64,000 nt of DNA from the NCBI RefSeq assembly GCF_040958095.1, contig NC_091158.1, positions 36,762,246-36,826,245 of the forward strand, given 5' to 3'. The translations under genes and the position numbers were made by a program. Below the pieces are notes generated by a model. That model was not told where the DNA came from. It saw only the letters and a program-made list of their open reading frames with translations, and did no database searches. The stretch's first letter is position 1. Each line of letters begins with the position of its first letter. Of this stretch, positions 29,318 to 53,247 are shown one piece after another. This stretch comes from Procambarus clarkii (lineage: Eukaryota > Arthropoda > Malacostraca > Decapoda > Cambaridae).

Positions 29318-29371
29318 TGTGGGAACCGACCTGTGAGATTTATATTTATTTAATTTATATGAATTTACATA

Positions 29372-29850
29372 GGGTTGTGTTAGCTAATTCTTCTATTGAT
29401 ATTATTCTTCATGACACTTATTATGTAGTAGCTCATTTTCATTATGTTTTATTTATAGGGGCTGTGTTTGGAATTTTTGCAGGTATTGTTCATTGATTCC
29501 CTTTATTTACAGGTTTATCTTTAAATAAAAAATGATTAAAAATTCATTTTTTTACTATATTTGTAGGGGTAAATGTAACATTTTTTCCTCAACATTTTTT
29601 AGGTTTAAATGGTATACCTCGGCGTTATTCAGATTACCCTGATGCTTATAGAGCATGAAATGTTTTATCTTCAATTGGTTCTATTAATTCTTTGGTAGCT
29701 GTGTTAGGATTTGTAATTATTGTTTGAGAGGCTTTTATTATAAGTCGAAAAAGATTTAGATCTCTTTTTATACCTACTTCTATAGAATGACAGCATTCTT
29801 ATCCTCCTGCTGATCATACTTATTCTGAGACTCTATTAATTTCTAATTAA
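29372..29850 (+). pseudogene. cox1: cox1 3' part (NUMT2)
   Basis: Codons ~352 to the stop TAA, open in the mitochondrial code ([20 protein letters not shown] to LLISN). Unlike NUMT1, the G run near 29566 has the normal length, so the frame is kept. The first 350 codons are at 50567-51616. Confidence 0.9.
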
Positions 29851-29851
29851 T

Positions 29852-29914
29852 TCTAAAATGGCAGATGGATGTATAGGATTTAAGCTCCTATAAAGAAGGT
29901 TTCTTCTTTTAGAA
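29852..29914 (+). tRNA. trnL2: trnL2 (UUR) copy, NUMT2
   Basis: As in NUMT1: acceptor TCTAAAA/TTTTAGA, anticodon TAA. Two or three bases differ in the T arm (tataaagaagg). Confidence 0.8.
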
Positions 29915-30602
29915 ATGGAAAGATGAGGAAATTTAGGCTTTCAAGATAGTGCTTCACCATTAATAGAGCAATTAATTTTTTTTCACGATCATGCTATAGT
30001 TGTGTTAATTTTAATTGTTTCGTTTGTAGGGTATATTATATTTTATTTATTTTTTAATTTTTTGGTTAATTGCTATTTATTGGAAAGACAGGAAGTTGAG
30101 ATTATTTGAACTATTCTACCTGCTATTATTTTAATTTTTATTGCATTTCCTTCTTTACGACTTTTGTATTTATTAGATGAGATTAATAATCCTAGGATTA
30201 CTTTGAAAACAATTGGCCATCAATGATATTGAAGGTATGAATATTCTGATTTTTTAGATTTAGAATTTGATTCTTATATATTAGGAACGGTGGATCTTTC
30301 TGAGTCTGGGTTTCGTTTATTAGATGTAGATAATCGTGTAGTGCTACCTATAAATTCTCAAGTTCGTATACTTGTTAGGGCTGCTGATGTTATTCATTCT
30401 TGAACTGTTCCAGCTTTAGGTATAAAAGCTGATGCAATTCCTGGTCGGTTAAATCAAATTAGATTTTTTATCAATCGACCTGGTTTATTTTTTGGTCAGT
30501 GTTCAGAAATTTGTGGGGCGAACCATAGTTTTATACCTATTGTAGTAGAAAGAGTGAGTGTAAATAGTTTTTTGGATTGAGTTTCTTCATGCTTAAAATC
30601 TT
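29915..30602 (+). pseudogene. cox2: cox2 (NUMT2)
   Basis: 688 bp, 229 codons plus an incomplete T stop, open in the mitochondrial code. It keeps CSEICGANH of the CuA site and the terminal [13 protein letters not shown]. Substitutions relative to NUMT1 include MES for MAS at the start and VNC for VIR in the second helix. Confidence 0.9.
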
Positions 30603-30666
30603 CATTTGATAACTTAAAGATAAGTGTAAGCCTTTTAAGCTTGAAATAGTAATTTACTTCAGATGA
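30603..30666 (+). tRNA. trnK: trnK copy, NUMT2
   Basis: CATTTGA/TCAGATG acceptor and TTT anticodon, identical in structure to NUMT1. Confidence 0.75.
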
Positions 30667-30669
30667 AAT

Positions 30670-50370: not shown

Positions 50371-50435
50371 GACTTTAAGTTAATAAAACTAACATCCTTC
50401 AAAGTTGTAAAAAAAAGAAATTCTTTTAGGTCTTA
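50369..50435 (+). tRNA. trnW: trnW copy, NUMT2
   Basis: Anticodon TCA (catccttcaaagttg) and AAGACTT/AGGTCTT acceptor. Confidence 0.8.
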
Positions 50436-50436
50436 A

Positions 50437-50500
50437 AAGTTTTAGTGTTAGCACATTTTCAAATTTGCAATTTGATGTTTTTAATTATTACTATAAAACC
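50437..50500 (-). tRNA. trnC: trnC copy, NUMT2
   Basis: Minus-strand anticodon GCA in CAAAT-TGCAAAT-type arm and GGTTTTA/TAAAACT acceptor. Confidence 0.75.
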
Positions 50501-50566
50501 TAATAAAAAAGAAAAATCTTGTATCTAAATTTACAGTTTAGCGCCTAAAGCTTGGCCATTTTATTT
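50501..50566 (-). tRNA. trnY: trnY copy, NUMT2
   Basis: Minus-strand arm CTAAA-CTGTAAA-TTTAG with anticodon GTA and AATAAAA/TTTTATT acceptor. Precedes cox1 as in the ground pattern. Confidence 0.8.
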
Positions 50567-51616
50567 ACGCAACGATGATTTTTTTCTACAAATCATAAAG
50601 ATATTGGAACATTATATTTTGTTTTTGGTACTTGAGCTGGTATAGTAGGAACTTCATTAAGAATGATTATTCGGGTGGAGTTAGGTCAACCAGGTAGATT
50701 AATTGGGGATGATCAGATCTACAATGTGGTAGTTACAGCTCATGCTTTTGTAATAATTTTTTTTATAGTAATACCTATTATAATTGGTGGGTTTGGAAAC
50801 TGATTAATTCCTTTAATATTAGGTGCCTCAGATATGGCTTTTCCTCGAATAAATAATATAAGGTTTTGATTACTTCCTTTTTCTTTAACTTTATTATTAA
50901 CTAGGGGTATAGTTGAGAGAGGAGTTGGGACAGGATGGACTGTTTATCCTCCTTTAGCTTCTGCTATTGCTCATGCGTGGGCATCTGTAGATTTAGGTAT
51001 TTTTTCTTTACATTTAGCAGGCGTATCTTCTATTTTAGGTTCAGTAAATTTTATAACAACTGCTATTAATATACGAACAGTAGGGATAACTATGGATCGA
51101 ATACCATTATTTGTTTGATCAGTGTTTATTACTACTGTTTTGTTATTATTATCTTTACCTGTGTTGGCAGGGGCTATTACTATATTATTAACAGATCGTA
51201 ATTTAAATACTTCTTTTTTTGATCCGGCAGGTGGAGGGGATCCTATTTTATATCAACATTTATTTTGATTTTTTGGACATCCTGAAGTTTATATTTTAAT
51301 TTTACCTGCTTTTGGTATAGTATCTCATATTGTAGTTCAAGAATCAGGTAAGAAAGAGGCTTTTGGAACATTAGGTATAATTTACGCTATAATTGCTATT
51401 GGTATTTTAGGTTTTGTAGTATGAGCTCATCATATATTTACGGTAGGGATGGATGTAGATACTCGGGCTTATTTCACTTCTGCTACAATAATTATTGCAG
51501 TTCCTACTGGTATTAAAATTTTTAGTTGATTAGGAACTCTTCAGGGAACACAAGTAAATTATAGTCCTTCTTTATTATGGGTACTAGGTTTTATTTTTTT
51601 ATTTACTGTAGGGGGG
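50567..51616 (+). pseudogene. cox1: cox1 5' part, open for 350 codons (NUMT2)
   Basis: Cytochrome c oxidase subunit I from the ACG start common in decapods (TQRWFFSTNHKDIGTLYF) to LFTVGG, uninterrupted in the mitochondrial code. Copper and heme ligands are visible: [24 protein letters not shown] and [18 protein letters not shown]. It stops at the mtDNA breakpoint, exactly before the LTG.GVVLANSS sequence that opens NUMT2 at 29372. It covers the standard barcode region. Confidence 0.93.
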
Positions 51617-53247
51617 TAAATTTTATATATTTACGTTAATTTATATACTTCGATAGCAATTTGTATGATGATAAGTGGACTGTATTTCTGCAATAATCTC
51701 ACAAATCGATCCTCTACACATTAGGGGGGGGTTTATATTGAATTTATATATATGCAGCCAATCAAACTACAGTATTAACTACACATTGTTAAAAATTGAA
51801 GAGGTTCCTTATCTTATTGTACAGAAGGCCTTAGTCCACCAGATATAACTAGGATGTAGACACCAAATTATCCTATTTTGAGGCAGTTTCCAACATCCAG
51901 TAACTGATGCACAAAGTCTTGCTTCCTCGTCTTGACCTGTCAAAAGGGCGCTAGCTGTAAAGCCAGAATCCTAATATATGACAGCTATATCAGAGAAAAC
52001 ACTGTACAAGGAACCATAAAGACCTAGGCTTAATTACCTTGTTTGAGTCAATCATTTGTGATCTAACCGGAATACCCAATAGCTACTGACATTAATGGCC
52101 ACAAATGATAGATAAATGGGTTTCGGCAGAACACTTAACTTGTATTTGTTGACAGCGTGTTGATGATGGTACACCTTTGGTTTCCATAACACTTCGTCCA
52201 AGTAAAATTAACAGGAGCCGAATTGCTCCCAGCCTCTGGTCTAAGTACAATAACAATGGCTGACCACTCCCTCACAACTGACGCTACTGGCCTATATTGT
52301 CCAGATGACAGTAAGTGATAGAAGTGTCACATTTACCCCTTTTTAATTCTTATAATTTTTATGAGATGTTTTTATGATGGTAAAGTCCAAAGACTAATGT
52401 ATTTAAGAATAATTCCCACCATAATAGGTGGTGAATTTATAATAGTATGTGGTAATGATATCCCGTTTTCTATAGACGGAAATTCCACTACAAGTTTCAT
52501 TTTCTATGGGTTAACTTGTTTATACAACACAGCAGCAATATTATCTGCCTGCATGTAATATTATTAAATAGTGTCGGATTTTCCGACATAATTCCCCAGG
52601 GGGCTGCTCACGGGTCGAAGTCCTATTTAGAACAGACGAACACCGATACTCCTCCTTCGGATTATTAGATTAATTTGATGTTAGTAGTTAGTAATCACAC
52701 ATTTGTGCGTCTGTTCGTACAGGACGGATGTCCCGTACTAGAGTTGCAGGGGTTAGAAGTCTAATGCGATTTCATTTCCCTGTTAACTCTTGAATGGCTA
52801 AAATTCAAGCCTAATTACATATTATTTAACCCAGAAGACTGGATGTGATCAAGTACTACAGTCAAGTATGATTCAGGGACTGCAGTGAGATCAGTGACAT
52901 TCGATATAACTTGAAGTTTGTTCAGGTAACTGGTCACTGATATATAAACACTGAGGCCCATGGAATACATCTTGATTAAATAATATATGTAATTGATTCA
53001 GAAGATTGAATAGCTCATCATTAAAGTAAAGTATAGTTCTGAGACTGCAATGGGTTCAGTGACATTGGTCACAGTGACTTGTAGTTGTTTAGGCTACTGT
53101 TCACTGATTTGCCACTGAGGCCCCATGAACTCATCTTCAGCTTTAAATGATGATACTAACATCAACCTCTGTTGGTATAGTCAGCTGTAATCTCCTTAGT
53201 ATAATGCTACTGGAGAAATATAATCAGCTGACAAATTTAGATTTCTA

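Follow-up and report, generated by a model that had tools for sequence, protein, structure and literature searches.

The tarsier full-length numt (PMC5059674) is, like the copy described here, a whole mtDNA in a nuclear genome; in the part of that report considered here, it overlaps itself in the 12S/D-loop region, is 88% similar to mtDNA and was ascribed to recombination between older numts. In contrast, our copy has a single opening, lacks three to six bases and has a partner sequence that preserves the empty site. Nuclear mtDNA copies are also described from crayfish and other decapod genomes (PMC7069360), as found here; that survey, in the sections considered, counted cox1 only, in eight assemblies, and did not describe full extents, host sites or control-region arrays. 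Long-read re-sequencing of the European lobster mitogenome (PMC6500004) revealed a large tandem duplication in decapod mtDNA that older methods had missed, a likeness to the control region discussed below. According to the passages of that paper considered here, the lobster duplication was seen directly in mtDNA and includes protein genes, whereas ours was deduced from nuclear copies and concerns the control region only.

The locus lies in a window of 64,000 nucleotides (the whole stretch of DNA analysed), which contains no N. The mtDNA contig of the assembly (G000:C2308, 15,928 bp) provided the mitochondrial (mt) coordinates. The alignment of the nuclear copy, N2 (29372-51617, plus strand), to this contig begins at mt 1058 (window 29372), passes mt 15928 and continues from mt 1 to mt 1054 (window 51620); with one mismatch disallowed it stops at mt 1051 (51617). 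Four later insertions interrupt N2. It covered 15,925 of the 15,928 positions at 3.31% substitutions, and only three bases of cox1, six at most, were absent. With this collinear homology to the organelle genome, and with nuclear DNA on both sides (LTR sequence at each end, in a long contig of a 4.03-Gb assembly), N2 is, on the alignment, a complete crayfish mtDNA copied into the nucleus, with Procambarus clarkii as the very probable species. The earlier note on this DNA had proposed this alignment to crayfish mtDNA and had read the genes as a circular order opened once in cox1, and both bore out; codon 350 ends at 51616 as it stated, while the left end, which it placed at about codon 352, is the second base of codon 353. 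It had also credited N2 with every mitochondrial gene except a clear trnP. The gene content stood and the exception fell, as all 22 of 22 tRNA genes were present, with trnP (42217-42283, plus strand) sitting where the mtDNA itself has it and in agreement with the P. clarkii gene order in Table 1 of PMC10379448. This tRNA set was detected with the metazoan mitochondrial mode of ARAGORN; its bacterial mode detected none, and Rfam, run at the gathering score, returned just one tRNA and two rRNA pieces. Both cob and nad5 of N2 carried in-frame stops, and 15 of the 20 amino-acid differences between N2 and P. clarkii in nad5 fell on the NUMT branch.

N2 splits one of the two LTRs of a BEL/Pao-type element. 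The left piece (29318-29371) reads GAATTTACAT, then A, then mt 1058, and its positions 29318-29367 are identical to 54684-54733 of the partner LTR (54684-55704). The right piece (51618-52588), with a few filler bases beside the mtDNA, differed from the partner by 25 mismatches in 958 aligned sites and 6 gaps. LTR termini of TG...CA and a GATCG target duplication (29313-29317 on the left, 55705-55709 on the right) identified an LTR retrotransposon. Its internal part (52589-54683, minus strand) was 92-94% identical to both internal ends of a relative elsewhere (C51), with respect to which it is internally deleted; both copies are short. The relative encodes DUF1759 and DUF1758, gag/protease domains that we take to point to BEL/Pao and on which the class of the host element is based. 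A Pfam search with the window's own element pieces gave no match, and a PDB search with one such piece returned nothing relevant.

The LTR is unbroken through the mtDNA site in the partner and in 38 other copies; among the 40 LTR candidates that were scored, these 38 make up every remaining main row. Because the partner LTR is empty, the mtDNA insertion postdates retrotransposition: the mtDNA entered one LTR afterwards and was not carried by the element, and capture of mtDNA by the element itself is ruled out. The earlier note had placed the NUMT within one LTR of a BEL/Pao fossil and proposed the LTR alignment given above; LTR parts on both sides and an intact partner support that placement, but its word "captured" holds for the location and not for the event. 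Its view that the host site can be read was right, almost to the base. The exact joining reaction is not readable, because the duplication at the target measures 5 to 10 bp and its copies differ as if by slippage.

Four transposable elements were nested within N2, and for two the target duplication is clear (13 bp and TTAA). A Penelope-like element (31342-33863, minus strand) interrupts atp6, flanked by the 13-bp duplication TATTAGGAATATT, and is absent from N1, a second mtDNA copy in the window. It encodes a reverse transcriptase (RVT_1, E 3e-8, above the cut-off) with a C-terminal GIY-YIG domain, which we counted towards the Penelope-like assignment at a score below the cut-off (E 0.0017; 19.1 bits against 22.6). 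Two SINE-like copies lie on the plus strand, one within nad4L (44272-44555), where the mtDNA stops at 44256 and restarts at 44563, and one with an A-tail near the end of nad4 (46075-46358), where it stops at 45991 and restarts at 46367. A transposon with terminal inverted repeats (GGGGGCATATC ends) occupies 48200-49164 at the 3' end of nad5, where mt 14539-14542, the TTAA target, is doubled. These insertions also bear on whether the assembly merged organelle reads with a nuclear contig, a question reportedly raised, by the title of one report, for the little brown bat. Such a chimera is very improbable here, since N2 diverges from the assembly's own mtDNA contig, carries stops and frameshifts as well as the four insertions, and shares its junction with N1, which is without the Penelope-like element.

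N1 (12226-19556) begins with a stub of the same LTR (12226-12279) and continues into mt 1058-7253 (12280-19556, plus strand); it holds two control-region units and stops at a 252-bp satellite. A tRNA-derived origin of this satellite was not supported in positions 6000-8000, the part searched. A search of the 4.03 Gb for the LTR-mtDNA junction pattern with up to two mismatches returned two matches, N1 and N2, and none for the pattern written backwards. Two separate mtDNA integrations could account for the different right ends of N1 and N2, their different numbers of control-region units and the divergence of their left flanks past an (AT)n tract; a junction that is the same to the base, at these two places only, contradicts this, and we regard separate integrations as the least credible of the alternatives. 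Judged by sequence comparison, N1 is instead a partial duplicate of the integration of N2. On the left side of the (AT)n tract, similarity of the flanks was 80-93% in most 100-column steps and 58-74% in four, far lower than in the copied block. The copying event therefore had an edge in the microsatellite, a point that counts against our best explanation.

N1 and N2 differed at 87 of 5,288 aligned sites. When changes were polarised with mtDNA (5,149 sites), those private to N1 or N2 fell evenly on codon positions 1/2/3 (14/17/18), which, with the stops and frameshifts, indicated decay without protein-coding constraint, whereas those common to N1 and N2 numbered 6/2/52 (Fisher p 7e-8). Therefore, the onset of nuclear decay either followed the split of N1 and N2 or preceded it only shortly, and these codon-position counts put the duplication soon after integration. 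Private changes were also uneven between the copies, with 30 in N1 and 55 in N2 (p 0.009), a difference that a simple clock does not explain and that counts against our best explanation.

The earlier note regarded full-length mtDNA insertions as rare, which does not hold in this genome. Probing the assembly with mtDNA revealed four other loci with about 88-99% of the mtDNA each, making N2 one of five, among the loci so found, that hold at least about 88% (about 88-100%) of the circle. Their ends differ, and descent of all large NUMTs from one integration was rejected on that ground. Tandem control-region units were found at N1/N2 and at three other loci, in 2 to 3.6 copies; in N2, three copies of the unit (mt 4704-5739) span 35556-38672 on the plus strand. 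The nine unit borders at these four independent integrations (N1/N2, C78, C47 and C68) share one breakpoint, as judged by eye in the alignment. The mtDNA contig has one unit, and this difference points to a donor mtDNA that was probably about 17-18.6 kb. A further locus, C64, has one partial unit only, which counts against our best explanation. A 33-base border sequence proved a weaker mark of unit borders than supposed, with five exact matches in the window for three borders.

Extra units could have arisen in the nucleus by unequal exchange after integration, and the two units of N1 against three of N2, the two types formed by units 1-2 and 3-4 of C47, and a repeat-rich control region (one 110-bp pair, mt 5260-5368 and 5717-5823, at 89%) are compatible with this. 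We consider it unlikely, as the same border recurs at all four integrations, and yet the mtDNA contig offers, at the two edges of the unit, a direct repeat of just 41 bp at 80%. In addition, the middle unit of N2 has 12 private changes, shares 1 site exclusively with the last unit and none exclusively with the first, and is thus no late copy of a neighbour. It is a less doubtful possibility, and still not the one we favour, that the single-unit mtDNA sequence is correct and the lineage lost its extra units, leaving the fossils as a record of the ancestral state only. Both the contig and the P. clarkii mitogenome of PMC10379448, given with one control region without tandem repeats, agree with such a loss. 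However, that mitogenome was assembled from Illumina data, in which a repeat of 1 kb may be collapsed, and the contig is as long as a public P. clarkii record (15,928) and may not be from the sequenced animal. Moreover, C47, which lies beside a 5,000-N run, is 0.5% from the contig and carries about 3.6 units, of which two differ from the contig by 0.10 and 0.17%. On balance, we lean towards a joint reading. In it, P. clarkii mtDNA would not be the published 15.9-kb circle but would measure, or have measured until recently, about 17-18.6 kb and hold two to nearly four control-region units in tandem. Uptake of whole mtDNA circles by the nucleus would be a recurrent event, and the mitogenome fossils that it leaves, near-complete and with repeat numbers preserved, would form a dated series.

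For N2 itself, the following history has a probability of roughly 0.85. In an already inserted BEL/Pao-type element, one LTR would have suffered a double-strand break, repaired by end joining that incorporated one mtDNA molecule. This molecule would have been linearised at a single point in cox1 and about 18.1 kb long in total, with three nearly identical control-region units in tandem. Soon after, a block comprising the stub of the LTR plus the beginning of the insert would have been copied about 17 kb upstream, yielding N1. Neutral decay in the nucleus would then have affected both copies, and N2 would later have gained the Penelope-like element, the two SINE-like elements and the TTAA-target transposon.

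Where a NUMT is complete and its empty site can be read, the joining event is open to study almost to the base, and five loci of different age in one genome form a series of near-complete ancestral mitogenomes. The new point is the tandem units: in N2 and other near-complete copies, they suggest that the copied mtDNA carried a repeated control region, unlike the standard mitochondrial sequence. With both C78 and C47 only 0.5% from mtDNA overall, these nuclear copies could mislead barcoding. The common control-region array leads to the prediction that the P. clarkii mitogenomes published so far are collapsed sequences, a matter of relevance for mtDNA-based work on the species.

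N2, the mtDNA copy lying in one LTR of a BEL/Pao-type element, is a genuine NUMT, complete and unusually easy to read. The assembly searched (G000; 4.03 Gb), in which the window corresponds to C9:36762246-36826245, contains a mtDNA contig of 15,928 bp (C2308), whose positions are given here as mt; it may be a public P. clarkii record instead of the sequenced animal's own mtDNA. BLAST pieces of N2 ran from mt 1058 at window position 29372 round the circle to mt 1054 at 51620, covering 15,925 of the 15,928 positions and lacking 1055-1057 only; one base at the right end was mismatched, and refusing it would leave six bases absent. 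The whole mtDNA within one LTR that the earlier note had proposed at 29318-52588 was borne out by the complete copy, the LTR sequence on either side and the unbroken partner LTR. The same note had found no clear trnP, but all 22 tRNA genes were present in N2 (29 predictions in the mitochondrial tRNA search), with trnP at 42217-42283 matching that of the mtDNA at 9248-9314. The gene order was the reverse reading of Table 1 in PMC10379448. The nad5 frame of N2 was closer to P. clarkii (97% identity) than to P. fallax (91%), and cox1 was 99% identical to a Cambarinae cluster, which makes P. clarkii very probably the species; the 20 differences from P. clarkii among 566 nad5 positions were assigned to the NUMT branch (15) and the P. 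clarkii branch (4), with one unclear. Without its four later insertions, N2 measured ca. 18,065 bp, 2,140 bp above the covered contig positions, chiefly because the control-region unit (mt 4704-5739) occurs three times.

The host element starts with TGTGGG at 29318 and ends with CGACA at 55704, and GATCG is found on both flanks. When the LTR pieces around N2 were aligned to the partner LTR (54684-55704), the left stub was identical over 50 bases and the right part differed at 25 of 958 sites. No Pfam match was found for the internal pieces of this element; a relative on contig C51, whose sequence agrees with the two internal ends at 92-94%, does encode DUF1759 and DUF1758, hallmarks of BEL/Pao elements. 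Because the coding sense is minus, the split LTR is the 3' LTR. The LTR search of the genome yielded 6,885 first-look candidates, 40 of which were scored: the two LTRs of the window plus 38 more. The mtDNA site was uninterrupted in all 38 (37 spanning LTR positions 1-1021 and one spanning 1-1009), and the LTR of N2 alone among the 40 begins at position 49. The window's two LTRs were 96% identical to each other, and the other scored copies reached at most 94%. Five rearranged LTR copies with inverted pieces were also seen at G000:C4:52858103-54551570. The target site in its empty form is GAATTTATATTTACG; the left junction of N2 consists of GAATTTACAT, an A and mt 1058, and the right junction of mt up to 1051 or 1054, followed by AATTTTATATATTTACG. 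The target shows a duplication of 5-10 bases and a few bases of filler or slippage, a junction that would fit a staggered break repaired by end joining.

The second mtDNA stretch of the window, N1 (LTR stub 12226-12279, mtDNA 12280-19556), is a partial duplicate of the N2 integration, having the same junction. The LTR stub and LTR-mtDNA junction were common to both copies, and the junction pattern, at no more than 2 mismatches, had just two matches in the genome, one in each copy; as a control, the same pattern was read backwards and had none. From an (AT)n tract onward, the left flank and mtDNA of N1 were 97-98.5% identical to N2, and beyond that tract the flanks were 80-93% alike over most steps of 100 columns, four steps falling to 58-74%. 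The left flanks at 10967-12098 (N1) and 28054-29190 (N2) belong, as diverged members, to a single family of AT-microsatellite, fold-back repeats, and their identity rises abruptly to 98% within the (AT)n tract. The Penelope-like element of N2 (31342..33863, minus strand), accompanied there by a 13-base duplication, is missing from N1, where the empty site is visible. The right end of N1 adjoins the 252-bp satellite. This 252- to 260-bp satellite lies around the NUMT region at 1-10103, 19556-20419, 23994-25699 and 60135-61902, and contains sequences resembling the SINE-like element of N2 at 2476-2744 and 3754-4032; a 3-kb G-rich array of GGCGGACAGTGGCGGCG and GGTGGTGGCG units with strong strand skew occupies 20885-23990.

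N1 and N2 differed at 87 of 5,288 sites. Polarised by alignment with mtDNA (5,149 sites), private changes since the split numbered 30 in N1 and 55 in N2 (p 0.009; 12280-19556 vs. 29372-40213), and those of both copies were codon-blind (14/17/18 by codon position). Changes common to both copies relative to mtDNA were distributed 6/2/52 at coding sites, with 57 elsewhere, and the contrast between private and common changes (p 7e-8) indicated that nearly all common coding change arose in mitochondria. N1 and N2 split soon after integration, although there may have been a delay, because the 95% upper bound for common second-position changes (ca. 6/990) about equals the private number of N1 (6). 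Substitutions per site amounted to 0.027 for the LTR pair and 0.017 for N1-N2 (5,286 sites); by divergence, the order of events is LTR pair, N1-N2 split and then Penelope-like insertion, the only later insertion that this order spans, N1 stopping before the SINE-like and TTAA transposon sites.

The rarity of full-length insertions asserted in the earlier note does not hold in this genome, where four other near-complete copies were found; complete numts were also already known (PMC5059674). The census used three 1.6-kb probes (nad2-cox1, mt 2300-3900 and mt 8100-9700), with all first-look candidates scored, and returned 33, 29 and 34 matches, respectively. Apart from the mtDNA contig, only N2 and loci on contigs C78, C64, C68 and C47 matched all three, C47 matching the second probe over 465 of 1,601 bases. 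The C78 copy (G000:C78:26585298-26602131) covered 15,744 mt positions at 0.49% substitutions, missing 11,329-11,512; C64 (C64:18896344-18913770) covered 15,551 at 6.41%, missing 5,439-5,815 in the control region; C68 (C68:23125288-23143605) covered 14,272 at 3.95%, missing 11,557-13,212; and C47 (C47:454713-471369) covered 13,989 at 0.53%, missing 2,765-4,703. These four differ in their ends, and their divergence from the mtDNA contig spans 0.5-6.4%. The C47 copy adjoins a 5,000-N run, its left end is therefore open, and it needs the most caution among the large copies. Loci on C125 and C2 covered 5,563 and 5,670 mt positions, respectively. Two NUMTs ca. 330 kb apart, at G000:C76:4895162-4896603 and 5224943-5226384, were almost equally similar and are perhaps a duplicated NUMT. 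No title on P. clarkii numts appeared among the open-literature papers matched.

The mtDNA contig has a single control-region unit; N1 and C78 have two, N2 and C68 three and C47 ca. 3.6, and C64, whose opening falls there, has one partial unit. By eye, one breakpoint is common to nine unit-to-unit borders from four independent integrations. With up to 2 mismatches, a 33-base border sequence matched five times in the window, which has three borders; C78 had one such match, C47 three and C68 two. At 4 mismatches the sequence matched three times in C68 and once in C64, with no match in C125, C2 or the mtDNA contig. Repeated nuclear origin of the array at one breakpoint is unlikely, as the direct repeat at the unit edges in the mtDNA contig is just 41 bp at 80%; further repeats lie within the control region (e.g., 110 bp at 89%). 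Units of N1/N2 and of C68 group by locus; those of C78 do so by a narrow margin, differing by 0.68% among themselves and by 0.78% from the nearest unit elsewhere. C47 has units of two kinds, and one kind is almost identical to the mtDNA contig. On these comparisons, the donor mtDNA probably already carried the array. PMC10379448 reports a P. clarkii mitogenome from Illumina data, without a tandem repeat, and, for crayfish control-region duplication, the array was unreported in the titles and abstract starts of the open-literature matches listed. The chief interest of the locus lies in the control-region array inferred for the donor mtDNA, and in a single genome carrying a series of near-complete copies of the mitogenome.
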